NCBI GenBank assembly: GCA_031273825.1
Contig: JAISRB010000132.1
Location: 1 to 39,561, forward strand
DNA length: 39,561 nucleotides
Direction of reading: 5' to 3'
Source of the DNA: Clostridiales bacterium
GTDB lineage: Bacteria > Bacillota > Clostridia > Christensenellales > JAISNN01
The notes below the pieces were generated by a model. It was not told where the DNA came from, did not search any database, and saw only the letters and a list, made by a program, of their open reading frames with translations. Below, one piece after another: positions 104 through 28,087 of the stretch; position 1 is the stretch's first letter, and each line of letters starts with the position of its first letter. The translations under genes and the position numbers were made by a program.

Positions 104-132
104 TTGAAATTTGTTTTGAAATAGTGTATAAT
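104..132 (+). promoter_or_regulatory. sigma-A-type promoter TTGAAA-N17-TATAAT
   Basis: TTGAAA 104-109, 17-nt spacer, TATAAT 127-132, upstream of the 168 ORF. Confidence 0.8.
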
Positions 133-167: not shown

Positions 168-797
168 ATGGATGCGACGGTTTTATTAAGCGACGAGGAG
201 TTGAAAGAGCGCAAAAAGACCTTGATCGGCAGGCTTGTCAGATTGGGGTTAATCTCTTTGATATTCATAGCCTTTGTAGTGTCCTTGGCCTTTCCGTATT
301 TGCAAAACTACAACCTTACTTATGTTGACGCGAACGGTCAAATCGTAAGCGAAACGGCGGACTTTACGGGCTTTGAGTTGGTGGCGGCCGCCGGAGAAAG
401 CATTCTCAAAATAGAGGACGGCGGACTTTACGGCAAATACATAATCGGAGCTTTCGAGCTAAATGTATCCACCGATTTTTCGGCGTTGGCGCTCATCTAT
501 TTGGTTCCGTTCGGGCTTTTGATATTCTTGTTGTTGTGGGTGGGCAATATCGCCATGACGGCGGCGTTGCTGTTTAACGGAAAATACAAAAAGGGAGTGG
601 CAAATCCGCTCAACGTCATACTCCTTATAGCGGGGCTTGCCGAGCTTGCGGCGTTGATGATATTCCAGACAATATATTGCGACTTATTTGCGTTGTCTTT
701 CGGCTTTTATATATTGGGAATAACCGCCTTGCTGGCGTTTATTTATCCGGCGTTTTCCGGATATTCAAAAAAGAAAATTAATGAAGAGTTAATTTAA
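168..797 (+). CDS. predicted four-TM membrane protein of unknown function
   Basis: 209-aa ORF with four hydrophobic segments and a long loop after TM1; promoter upstream. Confidence 0.8.
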   Translation: MDATVLLSDEELKERKKTLIGRLVRLGLISLIFIAFVVSLAFPYLQNYNLTYVDANGQIVSETADFTGFELVAAAGESILKIEDGGLYGKYIIGAFELNVSTDFSALALIYLVPFGLLIFLLLWVGNIAMTAALLFNGKYKKGVANPLNVILLIAGLAELAALMIFQTIYCDLFALSFGFYILGITALLAFIYPAFSGYSKKKINEELI

Positions 798-821
798 CAA
801 ATAATAAAGGAGAATACAATC

Positions 822-1034
822 ATGGCAAAGAAAAACAAAAAAGTTGAAGTTGCACCGGCTCCGGTAGTCGAGGCTCCTAAAGGCCCGACCATCGTTTACA
901 GAAGCCTTCCTAATCCGGCTCCCGTCGCGATATCGGCTCCTACGCCTATAATGCAAATCAACCCTATCGTTCAACCTATCGCTCTCGTACCTTACGGCAC
1001 GATGAATCAGCCTATTTTGCAGGTTGAGGAATAA
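822..1034 (+). CDS. small proline-rich peptide with PIVQPIALVPYGTMNQPILQ motif, copy 1
   Basis: 70-aa ORF with ribosome-binding site AAAGGAG; same protein as ORF 1229-1441. Confidence 0.8.
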   Translation: MAKKNKKVEVAPAPVVEAPKGPTIVYRSLPNPAPVAISAPTPIMQINPIVQPIALVPYGTMNQPILQVEE

Positions 1035-1070
1035 GAAAGGTTATTCGCAGCAAAAAAAGTCGGCGGTCAC

Positions 1071-1093
1071 GCCTCCCGGGCAATTCGGGAGGC
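1071..1093 (+). repeat. GCCTCCCG/CGGGAGGC hairpin after peptide copy 1
   Basis: 8-bp perfect inverted repeat, 7-nt loop, no following T-run. Confidence 0.6.
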
Positions 1094-1228
1094 AAGCCGT
1101 TCGATAGCAGACAAGCCGTTATCGGACGGCGCGCCCGAGCTTATCGGGTATCTATCATTTAAAAAACGAGGGCCGGCGTTTAATTCGGCCGAAAATAAAG
1201 TTTTAATATTTTTTTGGAGGATACAATC

Positions 1229-1441
1229 ATGGCAAAGAAAAACAAAAAAGTTGAAGTTGCACCGGCTCCGGTAGTCGAAGCTCCTAAAGGCCCGACTATC
1301 GTTTACAGAAGCCTTCCTAATCCGGCTCCCGTCGCGATATCGGCTCCTACGCCTATAATGCAAATCAACCCTATCGTTCAGCCTATCGCTCTCGTACCTT
1401 ACGGCACGATGAATCAGCCTATTTTGCAGGTTGAGGAATAA
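1229..1441 (+). CDS. small proline-rich peptide with PIVQPIALVPYGTMNQPILQ motif, copy 2
   Basis: Protein identical to 822-1034; three nucleotide differences, all synonymous; ribosome-binding site TGGAGG. Confidence 0.85.
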   Translation: MAKKNKKVEVAPAPVVEAPKGPTIVYRSLPNPAPVAISAPTPIMQINPIVQPIALVPYGTMNQPILQVEE

Positions 1442-1477
1442 GAAAGGTTATTCGCAGCAAAAAAAGTCGGCGGTCGC

Positions 1478-1503
1478 GCCTCCCGGGGTCAGCCTCGGGA
1501 GGC
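1478..1503 (+). repeat. GCCTCCCG/CGGGAGGC hairpin after peptide copy 2
   Basis: Same stem as 1071-1093 with a different 10-nt loop. Confidence 0.6.
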
Positions 1504-1568
1504 AAGCCGCTTGATAAAAAATTCTTGTTTAGAGCAAATCGTTACCGCTTTTTTGAGGAGTTGTTGGT

Positions 1569-2147
1569 ATGAATAATAAAAAAATAAAAAAAGCCGGCAT
1601 AATGTCTTCGATATTTAATATTGTCATTTGCACTATATTGATACTATTTGTCGTTATAGTGTTGTTTGGCAACGAGCTTATCGAATTATTGCCGGAGGAC
1701 GTCGGTCTTAACTTGTCGTCTTTCGCCGGATATTTGCCTACGAACGCGTCGGGCGAAGTCGACGGCGTAACATTCTATGAGATTTTCGGTGTAATTTTAG
1801 AGCCTCAAGCGCTTATACTTCAAGCGATAATTTTTGTAAGTATCGTAACGATAGTTATTTCGATTATCACCCTGATTACGCGTAAGGGCTTGGCGAGAAG
1901 ATTGTTCTCGTTCGTTTTACTCGGAGTTACGGTAGGTTCCGCCGCGTTGTTTATATACACCTACGGCTTGAATCTCGACGCTACTCTGTGGGCCGACATA
2001 AATAACTTCTTCACATCCGTCTTTTCGATAGGCTTACTCGGAGGCACGTCGTCCGAAAGTTTCGGCGCGTTCGCCGTATTCTCAACCTATCTGATGATAA
2101 GCGGATTGGGCACGGCGTCCTTTATTGCGACGCAGATCAACAAATAA
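1569..2147 (+). CDS. predicted four-TM membrane protein of unknown function
   Basis: 192-aa ORF, four hydrophobic segments, ribosome-binding site GAGGAG. Confidence 0.8.
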   Translation: MNNKKIKKAGIMSSIFNIVICTILILFVVIVLFGNELIELLPEDVGLNLSSFAGYLPTNASGEVDGVTFYEIFGVILEPQALILQAIIFVSIVTIVISIITLITRKGLARRLFSFVLLGVTVGSAALFIYTYGLNLDATLWADINNFFTSVFSIGLLGGTSSESFGAFAVFSTYLMISGLGTASFIATQINK

Positions 2148-2216
2148 ATCTCGGTTTGTTTGCGTAAAGCAAGAGTTCGGGTCGGCTTAAGATTTCGGAC
2201 AAGCTTAAAAAAAGTA

Positions 2217-2248
2217 AGCGCGCCCGAAACGGCGCGTTTGTTTTTTTT
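2217..2248 (+). terminator. intrinsic terminator-like hairpin
   Basis: CGCGCC/GGCGCG stem followed by TTTGTTTTTTTT. Confidence 0.55.
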
Positions 2249-2287
2249 AGGCGGCAAGATGCGTATTTATTTAAAGGGGTATATATT

Positions 2288-2503
2288 ATGGGAAAAAAAG
2301 ATAAAAAAATAAAAGGCGGCGCGATAAACGCGCCTCAACTGACGGCGATAGCCGAGCCTCGCGGGCTTGACGTTGACCGATTGGTTGTTGACTACAAAAT
2401 CGTGCCGTTTCCTATTCCGATAACGTTGGCTCAAACTTCGGCGAGCGTCGGAGACGGGTTCGACGATCGATATACCGCGCTTGCGCCTTATGAAACAAAC
2501 TAA
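2288..2503 (+). CDS. small Lys-rich-N-terminus peptide, possibly a divergent member of the proline-rich peptide group
   Basis: 71-aa ORF MGKKDKKIKGG... with IVPFPIPITL and ALAPYETN; sits in the same alternating array. Confidence 0.6.
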   Translation: MGKKDKKIKGGAINAPQLTAIAEPRGLDVDRLVVDYKIVPFPIPITLAQTSASVGDGFDDRYTALAPYETN

Positions 2504-2510
2504 CGGGGGC

Positions 2511-2539
2511 TTGACAAGATCCGTTTAATTTGATATAAT
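2511..2539 (+). promoter_or_regulatory. consensus sigma-A promoter TTGACA-N17-TATAAT
   Basis: TTGACA 2511-2516, TATAAT 2534-2539, 17-nt spacer. Confidence 0.85.
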
Positions 2540-2573
2540 ATAGGCGTATAAAATAAGCTAAGGGGATATAAGC

Positions 2574-3032
2574 ATGACCAAAAAGACGATAAGGGTTACA
2601 AGATTTAGTTCGATTCCGGTTTTTTTGTTTGCGGCGCTGTCAATTGCCGCGATAATTGTGCCGGATGCGGTGACGGGCTTGCCCGACTTTATCGACGGCT
2701 ACGCTCCGCTCGCGGAATATCTCAATTTTTCGCGGTTTAGCCTTGACGTCATAAAAAGCGATTGGCCGCTTGCGGCCTTTGCCTTAGGCGCGCTTTTGTC
2801 GGTCGGCGTCGCGCTTTCGTCGATATTTGGCTTTGCGGCGCAAAGACGGACGGGCAGAATGAGTCTTTCGACGCTTTCGTTCCTCTTGTTTTTGGGATAC
2901 GGAATCTACGAGACGGCGACAAGCGGACTTCCCGTTCTCGAATCGGCGGCGGCGGTAGACTACGGCTACTATTTGGTGCTCGGCTCGTCGGCGGCCGCGG
3001 CGGCGTCGGCTTATTTATCAAAAAGAAAATAA
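2574..3032 (+). CDS. predicted four-TM membrane protein of unknown function
   Basis: 152-aa ORF with four hydrophobic segments and its own promoter. Confidence 0.75.
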   Translation: MTKKTIRVTRFSSIPVFLFAALSIAAIIVPDAVTGLPDFIDGYAPLAEYLNFSRFSLDVIKSDWPLAAFALGALLSVGVALSSIFGFAAQRRTGRMSLSTLSFLLFLGYGIYETATSGLPVLESAAAVDYGYYLVLGSSAAAAASAYLSKRK

Positions 3033-3092
3033 GACCGCCGTCGGCGTAAAAAAAATATCAACGCGGCCGAAACGGCGTTTTGAACGGACAAT

Positions 3093-3118
3093 AAAAGCGG
3101 TAAAAGGCCGCTTTTTTT
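3093..3118 (+). terminator. intrinsic terminator
   Basis: AAAAGCGG-taaaagg-CCGCTTTT followed by T-run. Confidence 0.7.
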
Positions 3119-3179
3119 GACGGAACGGGAGATAAAGGCGTTTCAAAAAAATATTTTTCAGCAAAATGCGCAATAAGTA

Positions 3180-3208
3180 TTGAAATTTTTGCGGAAATGT
3201 TGTATACT
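3180..3208 (+). promoter_or_regulatory. sigma-A-type promoter TTGAAA-N17-TATACT
   Basis: TTGAAA 3180-3185, TATACT 3203-3208. Confidence 0.8.
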
Positions 3209-3241
3209 ATATATACGCTTAAGAATATAAGGAAAGGTGTT

Positions 3242-4210
3242 ATGAGCAAGAAGACTAAACAAAACGAATCGGGCTATGAAGCGGAGCATACCTGCAGTCA
3301 ATATGATTGCGGAATTTGCGCCGATAAGTTTGATTGTGATTATTACATCAACACTTTTTGCGTACCGCCCGCCGCCGGACAAAACGCATATTATCAAGAT
3401 CCCTACGGGGGATACGGTATGCAGCAAAACGGCGCGCCGCAAGACGGGACGCAACAACAGCCGCAACAGAATAATCAGCAGACGTTTAACGCAGGCTACG
3501 GAAACATTGCGGGTCAGCCTATTCCAAACCCAAATCAGCCGAACGGCGTGCAGCTTTCGCCTATAGTCATACCGGTTTCGTTTGTGCCTTATACGACGCA
3601 AAATCAGCCGCTCTATCAGGTCGAAACGGTTATGCCCGAGGTCGAGTTTGTCAAGCACCGCGGCCGCGCTTTGTTTATGCTTGTCGTCAGCGTAGCCATA
3701 TTCTTTATATTCTCGTTTCCTCTGATAGCCAATTATTCGGCAAACAACATCTTGGCCGGACTTTTTACGGGAATGCCCGTCGAGGTTCCGTTCTTTACGA
3801 ACAGCATGGGTTTTGAGGAGCTGTTTAAGTTCAGAGACATGATCGTCATGATAAGCGCGCACATCATCGCGCTAAGCTTGCTCGGAATATTTGTCACGGC
3901 GGTATACAACACCGCAAAATACATAATCAAGTCGATTACGGGAAGACTGAAAAAAGGCTCCGCGAAATCAAATAAATTTATCTTTGTATGCATACTGTTC
4001 TTGTTTGCGGGAATAGTCGTACTCAATATGAGCACGGGTCTCGGGGCGGTTGAAGCCTTTGGAAAGGTCTTAAAAAACGACTCGAGCCTTGTATACGGTC
4101 TGAACTTCGCTTATTACGCGCTAATCGGCGCGTCGATATTGTTGCTGTTTGCAACCGCGTTTATCAAAACGGAAAGATACGCTCCGGTAGAGGGCGCGCT
4201 TCCCGAATAA
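3242..4210 (+). CDS. fusion protein: Cys-rich and Gln/Pro-rich N-terminus, VPYTTQNQPLYQ motif, four-TM C-terminal domain
   Basis: Start at 3242 chosen because AAGGAAAGG precedes it; contains VQLSPIVIPVSFVPYTTQNQPLYQVE. Confidence 0.8.
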   Translation: MSKKTKQNESGYEAEHTCSQYDCGICADKFDCDYYINTFCVPPAAGQNAYYQDPYGGYGMQQNGAPQDGTQQQPQQNNQQTFNAGYGNIAGQPIPNPNQPNGVQLSPIVIPVSFVPYTTQNQPLYQVETVMPEVEFVKHRGRALFMLVVSVAIFFIFSFPLIANYSANNILAGLFTGMPVEVPFFTNSMGFEELFKFRDMIVMISAHIIALSLLGIFVTAVYNTAKYIIKSITGRLKKGSAKSNKFIFVCILFLFAGIVVLNMSTGLGAVEAFGKVLKNDSSLVYGLNFAYYALIGASILLLFATAFIKTERYAPVEGALPE

Positions 4211-4292
4211 AAGCCGCCGCATAACAAACGGCGCACATCAAAAAAATCAGCGGATAGCCGTCGTTTGACGCGTCCGACGGAGGGAAACTCAC

Positions 4293-4493
4293 ATGTTCAG
4301 AAAAAAAACGCCGCCAAAGCCCGTCAGGAGGGTTGTGTACGGCAACGCGCCCGTCAGTCAGCCGGTGCCTATAGAAAAGCCTAACGACATAATTCAGCTT
4401 ACTCCGATAGTTCAGCCGATTTCTATGGTTCCTTACGGAACGATGAATCAGCCGCTTTATCAGTATGTCTACGACGAAGACGGACAACAATAA
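4293..4493 (+). CDS. small proline-rich peptide with QLTPIVQPISMVPYGTMNQPLYQ motif
   Basis: 66-aa ORF sharing the motif with 822, 1229 and 3242 ORFs. Confidence 0.75.
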   Translation: MFRKKTPPKPVRRVVYGNAPVSQPVPIEKPNDIIQLTPIVQPISMVPYGTMNQPLYQYVYDEDGQQ

Positions 4494-17251: not shown

Positions 17252-18394
17252 TTACCGGCCGAGCGCGGCCGCCAAATCTTCTATCAGGTCGCCGGCGTTT
17301 TCTATGCCGACGGAGAGGCGCAGCAGCCTGTCGTTTATGCCGCGCGCGTCGCGCTCGTTTTTTGGCACGTCGGCGTGGGTCTGCACCGCCGGATAGGTGA
17401 CGAGCGTCTCCGCGCCGCCGAGGCTTTCGGCAAAGGCTATCAGCTTGACGCCGCCGAGAACGCGCTCTACGGTTTCAACGCTGTCGACCTCAAAGGATAT
17501 CATACAGCCAAAGCCCTCCGCCTGTCTTTTGAGAATCTCATAGCCGCCGTTAGACTCTAAGCCGGCGTAATAGACCTTTTTTACGCGCGGGTGAGCCGAC
17601 AAAAATTTTGCGATTTCAAAGGCGTTTTGCTGTCCGCGCTCCATTCTCAGGCCGAGGGTTTTGATTCCGCGCAAGACCAAAAAGCTGTCAAAGGGCGACA
17701 GGCACGCGCCGGTCGTCTTTTCGACGGTTATAAATTTTTCGGCAAGCTCCGCCGTCGCGGACGCCAAAAAGCCCGCCAGGGTGTCGTTGTGTCCGCACAA
17801 AAACTTTGTGCCGCTGTGAACGACGATATCCGCGCCGAGCGAAAGCGGCTTAAAAAAATACGGGGTCAAAAAGGTGTTGTCTACGATAGTCAATATTCCG
17901 AGAGGCTTTGCGATTTTTGCGATAGCCTCCACGTCCGAGACGAGCATCATCGGGTTTGTCGGGGTTTCGATAAAGACGGCGCGGGTATTCGGCTTTATGG
18001 CCGCCCTCACCGCGTCGAGGTCGGAGGTGTCGGCAAAATCTACGGTCAGACCGTTTTTTTGCGATATGTTGCGAAAGAGCCTTATAGCTCCGCCGTAGAG
18101 GTCGTGAGACGCGACGATTCCGTCGCCCGGCGAAAAAATTTCGCAAAGCGCGGATATAGCCGCCATTCCCGTCGAAAACGCGGACGCGCCCGCGCCGCCC
18201 TCGAGCGCGGCGACGGTTTTTTCGACGGCCAGCCTCGTCGGGTTGCTCAGCCGGGAGTAGTCAAAGCCGGTGCTTTTGTTTAGCCCCTTGTGCTTAAAGG
18301 TCGCGCTTTGATATATAGGAACGCAGACCGCCCCCGTCGGGTCGTCAAAGCCGTAATCGCCCGCGCCGTGCACGCAAACCGTTTCTTTTTTCAT
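17252..18394 (-). CDS. trans-sulfuration family PLP enzyme (MetB/MetC-like)
   Basis: YSRLSNPTR, ETPTNPMM, VVHSGTKFLCGHND; ATG at 18394 with AGGAG upstream. Confidence 0.9.
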   Translation of the reverse strand: MKKETVCVHGAGDYGFDDPTGAVCVPIYQSATFKHKGLNKSTGFDYSRLSNPTRLAVEKTVAALEGGAGASAFSTGMAAISALCEIFSPGDGIVASHDLYGGAIRLFRNISQKNGLTVDFADTSDLDAVRAAIKPNTRAVFIETPTNPMMLVSDVEAIAKIAKPLGILTIVDNTFLTPYFFKPLSLGADIVVHSGTKFLCGHNDTLAGFLASATAELAEKFITVEKTTGACLSPFDSFLVLRGIKTLGLRMERGQQNAFEIAKFLSAHPRVKKVYYAGLESNGGYEILKRQAEGFGCMISFEVDSVETVERVLGGVKLIAFAESLGGAETLVTYPAVQTHADVPKNERDARGINDRLLRLSVGIENAGDLIEDLAAALGR

Positions 18395-18417
18395 AAACAA
18401 TGCCTCTCCTCTTTAGG

Positions 18418-18479
18418 AAAAAAACGCTAAGGCAACGCCTCCGCGGTTATCGTCAGTCAAAATCGCGGTGCATTGCCCT
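18418..18479 (-). promoter_or_regulatory. 5' leader hairpin with U-tract, candidate attenuator
   Basis: Minus strand AGGGCAATGC(18479-18470)/GCGTTGCCTT(18438-18429) with inner CCGCG/CGCGG, followed by AGCG and T7. Confidence 0.6.
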
Positions 18480-18649: not shown

Positions 18650-19309
18650 TTAAGGCCGTCTGACGGTGCTCGAAGGAAACAGCGGCAGGTCAAACGCTCC
18701 CGTGCAGACCTCCTCGTTAAACTCCTGGCAAGGCGGAATAAAGCAATAGCCGTATGACGGCACAAGCAGCTCCACCTCGATGACGACCTTTGTGATGATA
18801 GTCATGCAAGCCGTGACGTTAAAGGTATTCGAGCCGATATACGAGCCTTCCGGGCAGTTGCAGTTGACGACGGTGTCGATTTCAAAGGGCATAATCGACG
18901 GCTCGGGTATAAACAAAATGATGTCGGCCGACACCGTCAGGTCGGCGGTTCCGGTATACCGCGTATTCGTCGCGTCAAAAAATATGACGTTGAGCGGCGC
19001 GGTCACGTTAAACCTACAGCGCGAGCAGCCCTTGCCCTCGGGCAGCGGCTCGATTATCAAATCCGAAAGGGTTCCGATATATGTAGAGCTTGCCGCGCTG
19101 ACAAATCTAAACGGCTCTACGGGTATAGAGGTCGTCGGCGAAAAGGAAGTAATGACAATATTTTCGTTTTCGAGAGTTTCTTGTCTTATGCAAGCGTCAA
19201 AGACCTTCTTTACCTGAATGCAGACGCGCTCGTTGAGGCCGCCCAAAGGGTTTCCGTTTATAGGGCCGGGCGTCCTTTCGGGACGCGGATTGTTATTTAA
19301 AAAAGACAT
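18650..19309 (-). CDS. hypothetical protein, possibly surface or spore-coat related
   Basis: Start MSFLNNNPRPERT with GGAGGTG upstream; beta-rich, Cys-containing sequence. Confidence 0.7.
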   Translation of the reverse strand: MSFLNNNPRPERTPGPINGNPLGGLNERVCIQVKKVFDACIRQETLENENIVITSFSPTTSIPVEPFRFVSAASSTYIGTLSDLIIEPLPEGKGCSRCRFNVTAPLNVIFFDATNTRYTGTADLTVSADIILFIPEPSIMPFEIDTVVNCNCPEGSYIGSNTFNVTACMTIITKVVIEVELLVPSYGYCFIPPCQEFNEEVCTGAFDLPLFPSSTVRRP

Positions 19310-19496
19310 AAAAAAGTCACCTCCGTTTTTCTTATAAAAACTACTATAGTATATGATAACTAAGAGGAAATAGTGATAGCCGCAAACGCTTGCGCAAAAC
19401 AAAAAAATGTGCGTCTATATGCTCGTGAGTATATAATGCGGGGTGAACGCATTTTTATGCGTTTGCCACGGATAACGGTATAATTGCCTAAACAAC

Positions 19497-24025: not shown

Positions 24026-27000
24026 ATGAATGCGGTTTTCGGGAGAAAGATAAACAAAACAAAAACGGGCTTTGCGGCTTTGGCGCTTGCTTTCATATTT
24101 ATAGCCGGCATGTTTTTCGCTTTCGGGGCGCTTTCGGCTTTCTCGGGCGGGGAGTCTTTTGCCACCACATACACAAGCTCAAACAATAACGCAAACGACA
24201 CCCAGATAACCGTCACAAGAGACGAGCAATTGGGTTTAGTCGACAGCTATCGCGAAAACCCAAGCTTTGACGCAAGCACAATCGGAAATCAGAGCGCGAT
24301 GACTGGCGGCGGCTATGCAAACACGGGATATAGCGTGCAAACTAGTACTAGTAGTTCTGCTCAAAGTGTTACCTATACCGATCAAGCCCATATAAGAGAT
24401 ACATTTAATTTAAGTTCCGACTTGCAGACGGCGATAAATAACGACAGAGTCACCTCAATTACCATGACGGTTTACTATGCTTTATATGCCACTACACAAG
24501 GACGCGCTGCTGCTCAGAATTATAACGAATTGTATTTTCATGTATATAATTCGGACGGCGCAAGCGTCGTATTGCATGACAACTCAGCAGTGGATGTGAA
24601 TGGGTGTTTGTATACTAGCGGTCGGAGTCAGGCACAGGGTGGGAGCAATACGGTTCTTACAGCGTCGTTGCCTGTACAGGCTATTATTAATCTCCCGGTC
24701 GCCAAGTTGAAAAATAAAACGTCTATCATTATTTTAGCTAGTGCATTGGCTTACGCTAACCAAACCACTAGGAGTAGAACCACCACGGCCGGCGCGGCCG
24801 TATCCCTCTATGACACTCAATTTTCTATCACATACAACACTCCGGCGGTCGGCGTTGCCTCGACGGCGGGCGGAATCGTGACAGGCGGAGACTTGACGCA
24901 GGCCAACGCAAACGCTACTGCCACGCAGGTTCAAGCGCAGGCTCCGTCGATTAACGCTATAGCGCAACCTAATAACAACTATTACTTTACGGGTTGGACG
25001 GGACTCATTACCTCGTCGGCTTTGAACGTATCGCAGACCGCGGATCAAAAATACTTCCAAATGTCCGGTTCGTCCTTTGCCGCGACGGCAAACTTTGCGC
25101 AAATCCCCGTGACGGTTTCAAGCACAAATACATATGTCTACAACGCGGCGGGTCAGGGGGCGGAGATTACGGTCTCGGCCTTGACGGGCGGCGCGAGCGT
25201 GGCCTCTTGGATATATGAGAGCACCGACGGCGGGGGCTACTATAGCACGGAAAAGCCGACAAATATCGGCCGCTACAAATATTCGGCGATCTTAAAAAAC
25301 GGGGTTGAGGATAATGTCGGCGTGCTTACCGGAGTCGAGTTTACTATAGAAAAGAGGACGCTATACGCCTCCAACATTACCGGTCTTTGGGCGACGAACA
25401 AGGAATATGACGGCACGAATGTCATAGAGACGGGAGGTAGCTTTACCGGCTTGCCGGGCGATGACAACAACAAGATAGTCGTAGGAGCCGAGCCTCTTTC
25501 GGGCGTGGACGCGGGAACGTATACCGTCAAATTTCTCCTTTTGGGAGACACGATAAAAAATTATTCATACGAAAGCTTTATCGTGATTGACGGCAGCGTG
25601 ACAATATTCCCCAAAGAGATAGAGTTTACTTTGAACGTCAACAATAGGATATATGACGGAACGACGAGGGCGAGAGCTGGAATCGAGTTTGAGGTCACGG
25701 GTTTTAGTGGGCTTGTAGACGGCGAGAATATCACCGAAAAGCTATATAGCATAGGCATCGCGACGGGTTACGCCGACAAAAACGCGGGCAGCAAGACCTT
25801 GACGATAGTCGTCAATCTTATCGCGGGAGCTTCTGACGGCGGCACAAAGGCCGACAACTATGAGCTTATAACGAATATCTATGAGGCAACCCACGAGATA
25901 TCGCCGATAGAGCTGACGCTAAACAACGTCGAGGCTCAATCGAAATTTTATGACGGAACCGATATAATCACGCTGACGGGCAGCGTAAGCGGAATCATCG
26001 CCGGCGAGGAGGCTTTGGCGTATTTGGTCAAGGCGGTGCGGGTCGCAAGCGCAAACGCGAGCGATTTTGCTTATGCCGTAGCCGTTGAGCTTGGCGGCGA
26101 GGGCGCGGCCAACTATGTCATGGACAATACGCCGAGAGAGGCTTATATATATAAGAGAAACGTCGCGGTGACGATGACGAACGCCGCAAGCAAGCTTTAT
26201 GACGGCACGGACGCGGCCGTTTTGGGAGTCAACTATAGATTGAGCTTTGTTGATACCGTCGGAGTCTTTGCCGAGGGAGTGCAGTTTAGCGTAGACGCGG
26301 CTTACGGCACGGCGAACGTCGGAAGCGGTTATTCGATAACGGCAAATATAACGTTGCTTGACGACAACGCGATAAACTATACATTGTCAAGCTATGTGTT
26401 AGTTTCGGCGTCGACGCTGAGGATAGATCGCGCGCTTTTGACCGTCGACAAAAAGATCGGAGCGATCTTTGAAAAGATATATGACGGCACGGATGCGGCA
26501 AAGGTTTTGATAAACGGCGTTTATGTCGATTTGGCTCCTAATAATCTGACGGAGGTCTTTGACATAGCGGGAATAGTTTCCGCGGATTCGTTAGACGGAG
26601 TGCTCGCGCTGAACGCGGCGAGACCGTCGGTGTATCTGTCGGGCAAGAACGCCGGCGAAGGGCTGACGGTGTCGGTGGCGTTGGTGTTGATAAACCAAAA
26701 CTATCGCCTTGTAGGAAACGGAGCTTATGAGTTTGACGGAAGCCTGATAGCCAAAGCGAGGGCGGCGCAGCCGGAGGATATAGAGTTAGAATACGGTCAA
26801 GCCCTGCCTACAAGCTTTGTCTTAGACGGCATACCGGGCGAGACGGTGACGGGCAGCACATTGTTTTGGGGAGCGCTTGTGGGTAAGACTTATGCCGAGT
26901 ATAAGGACAGCGGAAGCTATATCGTTAGATTTACGCCGGACGACCCGAACTATACATATGTAAATTATGAGATAAACGTAACTATTCACAAGAAGCTGAT

Positions 27001-28087
27001 AACCGTCGTCCTGCCGAACGCGCCGATATATAAGACCTATGACGGCACGAACGAGACGCCGCTCGGGTGGCTTAGCTATTGCTCGGTCGAGGGGCTTGTC
27101 TTGGGCGACAAAATAACCGATTTGATAGACGGTTTGAAGTTTGAGTTTCCGGGAGTCAACGCCGGAGCAAACGGAGTAATTTTGGAGTTTAAGCTGACCG
27201 ACGCGGACGGCAACTACGCCTTTGACTTGGAGCTTGACACTATAGAATATTCGGAGACGCTTGACGGCGGCATAAACGCAATCAAGCTGACGATAGAGGC
27301 TCCGTCCGCGGAGGCGGTCTATGACGGAACCGATTTGTCGGGCTTGATAAAGGGGCAAAGCTTTGTCTATGCCGGCGGTCTGCTTGACGGCGAGGAGGGC
27401 TATGTGACCTCTGAAGATATAGCAATCGATTATGTGTATTATATCGACGTATCGGGCAATACGGTGAGAGTCGACGACGCGGCGGCGTTCGAGGCGGTAA
27501 TGGCTTATGTATACTATTATGTGCCGACGCTTAGCTATTTGGGCGAGGGAATGCAAAACTATTACGTAGACACGGCGGCGGTGCTGACCGTTACGAAAGC
27601 CGCGGCAGAATTTGGCGTGACGAGAACAAGCGGAAAGCTTACGGTTGACAATCCAAAGGGCTACACGGCCGAGTATAGCATAGACGGCGGCGACACGTGG
27701 CAGAGCGCGGCGGAGTTTGAGGTCGGCAATTTTACGGTGTACAGCGTGCAAATAAGACTTGTCGGCGACGATTATGTCAACTATGAACCGGTGCAGCCGA
27801 TAGAGTCCGAGGAATACACAAGCATATTTGTGCCGATAGGCGCGACCGGAGGCGTTGCCTCCGTCGGAGTCGGAATAGCCGTAGCCCACGCCGTCAAGCT
27901 AAAAAAGACGGCGAAAGGTATCAAGGCCGCTTCAAAGGCCGTGAGAGAAAGACTGATAGCCGCGGAGAAAAACAGAGTCCTCAATAGAAGCCAAACCGTT
28001 ATGAGGCTGTCGGACGACGGCGTAGGGGTAGGAACGCAGGTAGTCCAAAAACAAGCGCGAAAGATTTATCCTACAAACAGATATTAA
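24026..28087 (+). CDS. large surface protein with YDG/MBG-type repeats and C-terminal TM anchor
   Basis: N-terminal hydrophobic signal, seven YDGT motifs, C-terminal hydrophobic segment followed by a Lys/Arg-rich tail. Confidence 0.9.
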   Translation: MNAVFGRKINKTKTGFAALALAFIFIAGMFFAFGALSAFSGGESFATTYTSSNNNANDTQITVTRDEQLGLVDSYRENPSFDASTIGNQSAMTGGGYANTGYSVQTSTSSSAQSVTYTDQAHIRDTFNLSSDLQTAINNDRVTSITMTVYYALYATTQGRAAAQNYNELYFHVYNSDGASVVLHDNSAVDVNGCLYTSGRSQAQGGSNTVLTASLPVQAIINLPVAKLKNKTSIIILASALAYANQTTRSRTTTAGAAVSLYDTQFSITYNTPAVGVASTAGGIVTGGDLTQANANATATQVQAQAPSINAIAQPNNNYYFTGWTGLITSSALNVSQTADQKYFQMSGSSFAATANFAQIPVTVSSTNTYVYNAAGQGAEITVSALTGGASVASWIYESTDGGGYYSTEKPTNIGRYKYSAILKNGVEDNVGVLTGVEFTIEKRTLYASNITGLWATNKEYDGTNVIETGGSFTGLPGDDNNKIVVGAEPLSGVDAGTYTVKFLLLGDTIKNYSYESFIVIDGSVTIFPKEIEFTLNVNNRIYDGTTRARAGIEFEVTGFSGLVDGENITEKLYSIGIATGYADKNAGSKTLTIVVNLIAGASDGGTKADNYELITNIYEATHEISPIELTLNNVEAQSKFYDGTDIITLTGSVSGIIAGEEALAYLVKAVRVASANASDFAYAVAVELGGEGAANYVMDNTPREAYIYKRNVAVTMTNAASKLYDGTDAAVLGVNYRLSFVDTVGVFAEGVQFSVDAAYGTANVGSGYSITANITLLDDNAINYTLSSYVLVSASTLRIDRALLTVDKKIGAIFEKIYDGTDAAKVLINGVYVDLAPNNLTEVFDIAGIVSADSLDGVLALNAARPSVYLSGKNAGEGLTVSVALVLINQNYRLVGNGAYEFDGSLIAKARAAQPEDIELEYGQALPTSFVLDGIPGETVTGSTLFWGALVGKTYAEYKDSGSYIVRFTPDDPNYTYVNYEINVTIHKKLITVVLPNAPIYKTYDGTNETPLGWLSYCSVEGLVLGDKITDLIDGLKFEFPGVNAGANGVILEFKLTDADGNYAFDLELDTIEYSETLDGGINAIKLTIEAPSAEAVYDGTDLSGLIKGQSFVYAGGLLDGEEGYVTSEDIAIDYVYYIDVSGNTVRVDDAAAFEAVMAYVYYYVPTLSYLGEGMQNYYVDTAAVLTVTKAAAEFGVTRTSGKLTVDNPKGYTAEYSIDGGDTWQSAAEFEVGNFTVYSVQIRLVGDDYVNYEPVQPIESEEYTSIFVPIGATGGVASVGVGIAVAHAVKLKKTAKGIKAASKAVRERLIAAEKNRVLNRSQTVMRLSDDGVGVGTQVVQKQARKIYPTNRY

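Follow-up and report, generated by a model that had tools for sequence, protein, structure and literature searches.

The window analysed here, the contig JAISRB010000132.1 of 39,561 nucleotides (nt) from a Clostridiales bacterium, is one whole contig that begins inside a gene cluster. Between positions 168 and 4493 it carries an array in which proteins with four predicted transmembrane (TM) segments (four-TM proteins) are interspersed with small peptides that share a conserved motif. Our analysis suggests that the cluster products assemble as subunits into a single hetero-oligomeric inner-membrane platform, with a cytosolic docking motif supplied in cis or in trans; this reading, built on sequence comparison, has in our judgement about an even chance of being right. 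The array is new, a lineage-restricted system for which no described counterpart was found. Each unit would combine a docking motif of ~25-45 residues with a four-TM protein, the latter all being paralogues within one superfamily; the motif is either part of the membrane protein's own N-terminal tail (in cis; 3242 here) or lies in an adjoining small soluble peptide (in trans; 822/1229, 2288, and 4293). Genes are named by their start positions; the open reading frames (ORFs) listed in an earlier sequence-only reading of this DNA (168, 822, 1229, 1569, 2288, 2574, 3242, and 4293) are all present and have sensible ribosome-binding sites.

104..132, + strand: promoter-like site TTGAAA-17-TATAAT upstream of the 168 gene (11/12 consensus matches; a consensus match only)
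168..797, + strand: four-TM protein A, 209 amino acids (aa), without the motif (ORF, AlphaFold model)
822..1034, + strand: motif peptide, 70 aa, twin copy 1 (ORF, motif profile match)
1071..1130, + strand: strong RNA hairpins 3' of twin copy 1 (GCCTCCCGGG...), without a U tract (within a fold of -41 kcal/mol, z-score -4.8)
1229..1441, + strand: motif peptide, 70 aa, twin copy 2, protein identical to copy 1 (3 synonymous differences)
1569..2147, + strand: four-TM protein B, 192 aa, without the motif (ORF, alignment comparison)
2202..2254, + strand: terminator-like long hairpin with a U tract (fold of 2148-2287, z-score -3.3)
2288..2503, + strand: diverged motif peptide, 71 aa, syntenic with intact motif peptides of sister genomes
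2511..2539, + strand: promoter-like site TTGACA-17-TATAAT, full 12/12 consensus, extended -10
2574..3032, + strand: four-TM protein C, 152 aa, without the motif (ORF, alignment comparison)
3095..3120, + strand: terminator-like hairpin with a U tract (fold of 3030-3130)
3180..3208, + strand: promoter-like site upstream of the 3242 gene (10/12 consensus matches)
3242..4210, + strand: protein D, a fusion of motif and four-TM domain, 322 aa
3539..3625, + strand: motif within protein D (motif profile match)
4293..4493, + strand: motif peptide, 66 aa, nearest to the family-wide consensus

The motif and its membrane partners

That the peptide acts with its membrane partner had been proposed from the 3242 fusion; adjacency, displaced gene pairs, and recurrent fusions now support the proposal. 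Among 98 motif peptides, 86 have a four-TM ORF no more than 450 nt downstream on the same strand (median gap 61.5 nt); the remaining 12 are first members of twins, the terminal own-genus peptide, a peptide at a contig end, or cases in which the next four-TM ORF lies slightly past 450 nt. Copies outside the cluster are a better test of pairing than those within it. Four such loci were found, in three genomes of one genus (L107, L109, L093, and L132), and each consists of a motif peptide followed by a four-TM gene, with gaps of 36, 10, 28, and 31 nt, respectively (the last on G756:C155). The pairing at L132 was forecast before the locus was inspected and was then found; L093 and L132 are counted as one event because they share neighbours. 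Three of the off-cluster membrane proteins were compared with the cluster proteins and belong to the same four-TM superfamily (hhalign score 96.9 to family X1). Fusions with the motif in cis recur in all three families that carry the motif; taken with the displaced pairs, they point from two sides to peptide and four-TM protein being one functional unit. In the order, a four-TM profile (A5, expectation value (E) 1e-6) matches only 14 of the 151 genomes searched, each of them also motif-positive and matched at cluster positions, and motif homologues scattered without membrane partners were looked for with none found. The displaced pair at L093:7905-8877 and L132:1413-2364 adjoins genes for a rubredoxin-like protein, an FprA-like flavoprotein, and a Crp-like regulator (two genomes, one genus).

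The motif unit spans ~45 residues and is longer than first described. In aligned relatives its core is QLTPIVQPIxxVPYSTQxQPLxQ, within the full form [VSA][FYW][RKQ]-x-[VIM]-x-N-x-x-P-V-P-V-A-x-P-x-x-[FI]-I-Q-L-T-P-I-V-Q-P-I-x-x-V-P-Y-[SG]-T-[QM]-x-Q-P-L-x-[QM]-[FY], usually preceded by a Lys-rich start and followed by an acidic tail. Its profile matches 822, 1229, 3242, and 4293 (E 1e-16 to 6e-21 per genome), the set to which the sequence-only reading had assigned the motif. The exclusion of 2288 from that set does not hold: this peptide scores 11.3 bits against the motif-peptide profile, compared with 8.0 for the best of 2000 of its own shuffles, and it occupies the slot of an intact motif peptide in three sister genomes (G001, G003, and G004), with the C-terminal end ALAPYETN where its counterparts have ALVPYGTMN. 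Pairwise identity across 58 fused proteins is 70% for the motif and 25% for the attached four-TM domain; a motif so much more conserved than its carrier domain fits the expectation for a binding motif.

A 45-position profile was used to search sampled whole genomes of the order, class, and phylum. The motif is present in 66 of 396 genomes of the order and is confined to three families: the window's own genus (6/6), f24 (15/15, one only weakly: E 0.0013, 68% complete), and f3 (21/25, with genus g3 among those lacking it). No genome other than the window's own was matched among 392 sampled from the class and 399 from the phylum. Family f24 takes in Clostridiales bacterium DTU072 and Candidatus Stercoripulliclostridium, and all three motif-bearing families are uncultured gut and digester Clostridia; isolate codes suggest that the own-genus metagenome-assembled genomes labelled "Clostridiales bacterium" come from insect guts. 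A weak match at G000:C121 (E 0.17) was treated as chance because it lies on the minus strand amid plus-strand ribosomal-protein-like genes. Comparison of the motif with PDB sequences gave no match up to E 1.

The motif peptides are under extreme purifying selection. The twin genes 822 and 1229 lie in a 272-nt direct repeat (98% identical) and differ by three synonymous and zero nonsynonymous codon changes. Sister genomes carry twins too, with 32 synonymous and 0 nonsynonymous codon differences in G002 (synonymous divergence, dS, 1.47; nonsynonymous divergence, dN, 0) and ratios of 20:0 in G001 and 24:0 in G005; across genomes, motif peptides show dN of 0.02-0.08 and dS of ~0.9-1.4. These peptides are real, strongly constrained proteins.

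The RNA hairpins 3' of both twins are very stable (1035-1130, z-score -4.8; 1442-1530, z-score -3.7) and lack a U tract; the one following copy 2, at ~1478-1503, matches that of copy 1. It is possible that they act as mRNA stabilisers or attenuators that set peptide dose. No Rfam family was found in the window. Promoter-like sites numbered 16, compared with 7.2 +/- 3.2 expected, and at least three of them (104, 2511, and 3180) lie in the array. These near-consensus sites (11/12, 12/12, and 10/12 matches) bear out the promoters of the sequence-only reading, but the strong expression it drew from them has no independent support, and codon usage of homologous genes at four loci is not shifted towards that of ribosomal proteins.

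The four-TM proteins

Kyte-Doolittle analysis gives four TM segments for 168 and 3242, in agreement with the original call, but three for 1569 and two for 2574, whose orthologues have three to five; the low counts arise because helices fall below the Kyte-Doolittle cut-off. The four-TM families are linked by hhalign scores of 194 (X1-X2), 123 (D-X4), 110 (D-X3), 86 (A-Z1), 74 (C-X3), and 52 (B-C), those among D, X3, and X4 being raised by the motif that these three share. As a control, seven unrelated membrane families compared with the same sets scored 17.5 on average and 29.3 at most. These profile comparisons indicate that the cluster four-TM families are one superfamily, with common descent of their membrane parts.

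Across 148 four-TM proteins, mean net charge is +3.2 for the N-terminal tail, -11.8 for loop 1, +3.8 for loop 2, -2.8 for loop 3, and +2.1 for the C-terminal tail; median loop lengths are 56.5, 13, and 24. By this charge distribution the proteins are N-in/C-in, loop 1 is long and extracellular, and the motif falls in the cytosol. The AlphaFold model of the 168 protein is of high confidence (predicted local distance difference test (pLDDT) 88, predicted template-modelling score (pTM) 0.82), and its loop 1 contains a beta hairpin (43-53, 59-67) and helices. Protein D consists of a Cys-rich N-terminal tail, a Q/P-rich linker, the motif at residues 103-127, and a four-TM domain from residue 140; its model has a mean pLDDT of 68.6, with confident TM helices. 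Residues 17-40 (window 3290-3361), in the cytosolic tail, form a Cys-rich stretch, C-x4-C-x2-C-x5-C...C, that is conserved in the genus and may bind metal. Certain motif-less four-TM proteins of f24 (L100, L105, L091; L093:8161, L107:4447, L132:1666) carry a second short N-terminal motif, ~[ST]-P-Y-x3-Y-x2-A, possibly a counterpart of the peptide motif.

The earlier statement that no family is recognisable holds for Pfam, NCBIfam, PADLOC, and PHROGs, the zinc ribbons of the first cluster gene (see below) excepted. Neither the four-TM proteins nor the peptides of the window match a Pfam or NCBIfam family at the curated cut-off. Relatives, zinc ribbons again apart, give scattered weak matches to these two libraries, with no family common to more than a few members (best E 3.8e-06, in one member of 58).

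Gene order and surroundings

Cluster gene order is highly conserved across loci of the three families. The general order is a small acetyltransferase-like gene and/or glnS, a zinc-ribbon four-TM gene, a four-TM gene, a motif peptide, a four-TM gene, a motif peptide, a four-TM gene with motif, a motif peptide of ~125 aa, a four-TM gene with motif, and acpP. In the window's own genus the order is zinc-ribbon four-TM, A, the peptide twins, B, peptide, C, D (the fusion), and peptide, and asnS lies downstream of the cluster in the window and in several sister genomes. The f3 version is shorter and comprises a soluble protein that combines zinc ribbon and motif, plus a pair of four-TM proteins. In one family the cluster lies directly upstream of acpP-rpmG-secE-nusG; a functional tie to this Sec/NusG operon was considered and set aside, since the secE neighbourhood is not kept in the other two families and is treated as mere position. 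We assigned the names glnS, asnS, acpP, rpmG, secE, nusG, and acetyltransferase-like by reading the sequences; asnS alone was compared with a family library (PF00152).

The first cluster gene, missing from the window, faces outward at one end of contig C15 in this genome, with the small acetyltransferase-like gene before it. It encodes a 461-aa zinc-ribbon four-TM protein whose N-terminal zinc ribbons pass the PF13240 cut-off (25.5 compared with 25 bits). Such ribbons are shared with bacterial zinc-ribbon membrane proteins (Zn_Ribbon_1, PF13240; DZR, PF12773). Unlike these, the first gene has a membrane part that groups with the cluster four-TM superfamily (the A-Z1 link above) and, in other families, bears a variant motif, e.g., VVQPFVVVPY.

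Elsewhere, the window encodes a 1353-aa surface protein (24026-28087) with four YDG repeats, a C-terminal TM segment, and a basic cytosolic tail; similar large one-TM proteins occur on contig C15 (L127:5059-7704) and adjoining the array in L084. A 250-aa protein (18650-19402) belongs to no Pfam family and has a cysteine-containing, beta-rich sequence that is spore-coat/exosporium-like by eye only. ARAGORN calls a tRNA-Phe at 18353-18449 (anticodon AAA, 97 nt) that overlaps the start of a protein gene and is probably a false call.

Assembly and alternatives

In the proposed platform, the motif would dock onto a common site, which might be another subunit, the cytosolic face of the four-TM domains, or some cytosolic protein; repeated motifs would allow multivalent assembly, and the zinc-ribbon four-TM protein could be a regulatory or cytosolic-contact subunit. 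Several points weigh against this proposal. Some four-TM pairs fall below significance (e.g., A-B, hhalign 15.7), so that the superfamily link is partly transitive. In the 3242 model the motif segment has low confidence (pLDDT ~55-58), so that the model offers no support for docking onto the four-TM domain of the same protein. The last own-genus peptide (4293) has no four-TM gene behind it, the analysis turned up no cytosolic receptor for the motif, and pairing could stem from shared regulation and not from contact.

In the strongest rival reading, the motif brings to the membrane a soluble enzyme or cytoskeletal protein encoded by a separate gene, with the four-TM proteins serving as anchors and the free peptides as competitors or adaptors that tune recruitment. 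A motif that is extended or disordered in the 3242 model and more conserved than its carrier resembles a peptide ligand of a folded domain, and the zinc-ribbon partners could bind protein or RNA, but the cluster encodes no globular candidate, and among 40 genomes of f24 and f3 no significant motif match is fused to an enzyme, as judged by position and frame length. We consider recruitment of this kind possible, although somewhat doubtful.

A likeness to the eukaryotic claudin/TARP proteins (stargazin, GSG1L) bears on what the platform might be. Both groups have four TM segments, both termini inside, a long extracellular loop 1 with beta strands, a short intracellular loop, and a medium loop 2. 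In Foldseek searches of the PDB, the first match was GSG1L for one of the two models (E 0.077, probability 0.90) and a GluA2-TARP gamma-5 chain for the other (E 0.070, probability 0.80), with more claudin/TARP chains further down the lists, mostly for the 168 model; the best E values are 0.07-0.08, none is at or below 0.001, and TM-scores reach at most ~0.50. A PDB profile search placed claudin-4, claudin-3, and TARP gamma-7 among its weak matches (claudin/TARP chains, E 0.09-0.95). The W-GLW claudin signature is absent from all 148 four-TM proteins, of which two have two or more loop-1 cysteines. Claudin/TARP proteins carry a C-terminal PDZ ligand, whereas the putative docking motif is N-terminal and the cluster proteins are bacterial. 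Because no Foldseek match is significant and the signature is missing, we speak of a claudin-like topology and not of the claudin family. SUR7/PalI proteins of the fungal MCC/eisosome are four-TM proteins that organise membrane domains; one of 35 cluster members matches PF06687 at E 0.035, a lone sub-threshold match among many unrelated weak ones, and no motif peptides are known from the SUR7/PalI system. A structure search against viral models found no coherent family, and a literature search found nothing on this system or on any bacterial claudin-like family. It is a speculative, rather unlikely extension of the platform reading that the array forms a bacterial claudin-like membrane strand or platform, in which paralogous claudin-topology proteins are cross-linked cytosolically by the multi-copy proline-rich docking peptide, whether invented in this lineage or retained, and perhaps remotely related to claudin/TARP.

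The same likeness would also suit claudin/TARP-like auxiliary or chaperone-like subunits that set the assembly or gating of another membrane complex (channel, translocon, or transporter), with the peptides as small regulatory subunits. This alternative is unlikely: both models bring up TARP or GSG1L chains first and one family has the cluster just upstream of acpP-rpmG-secE-nusG, but the structural matches are no better than the values given above and the other two families do not share the secE neighbourhood.

Small basic peptides next to membrane proteins, some in identical twin copies, might also be a secreted bacteriocin or pheromone, with the four-TM proteins as exporters, immunity proteins, or sensors. 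We find this very improbable, as the peptides have no visible signal peptide or double-glycine leader, the cluster lacks ABC transporter and peptidase genes, membrane proteins carry the motif within their cytosolic tail, and selection on the peptides is purifying, not diversifying. Least probable of all is a defence, toxin-antitoxin, or phage-derived module, for although a small gene adjoins a membrane gene and displaced pairs occur at new sites, 0/10 proteins match PADLOC (at E 0.01) and 0/10 match PHROGs, no relative occurs in viral contigs, and the cluster keeps one place in the chromosome, next to aminoacyl-tRNA synthetase genes, and has a motif found, once by a weak match, in every sampled f24 genome.

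A multi-gene membrane system present in all 15 sampled genomes of one family and in two more families, and held under extreme constraint, belongs to no described family and would escape annotation. Since the peptide is encoded apart from its membrane partner at some loci and fused to it at others, two small genes suffice for a direct test of binding. Should the claudin-like fold prove true, these proteins would be a bacterial counterpart of a fold known best from animal cell junctions and receptor accessories.

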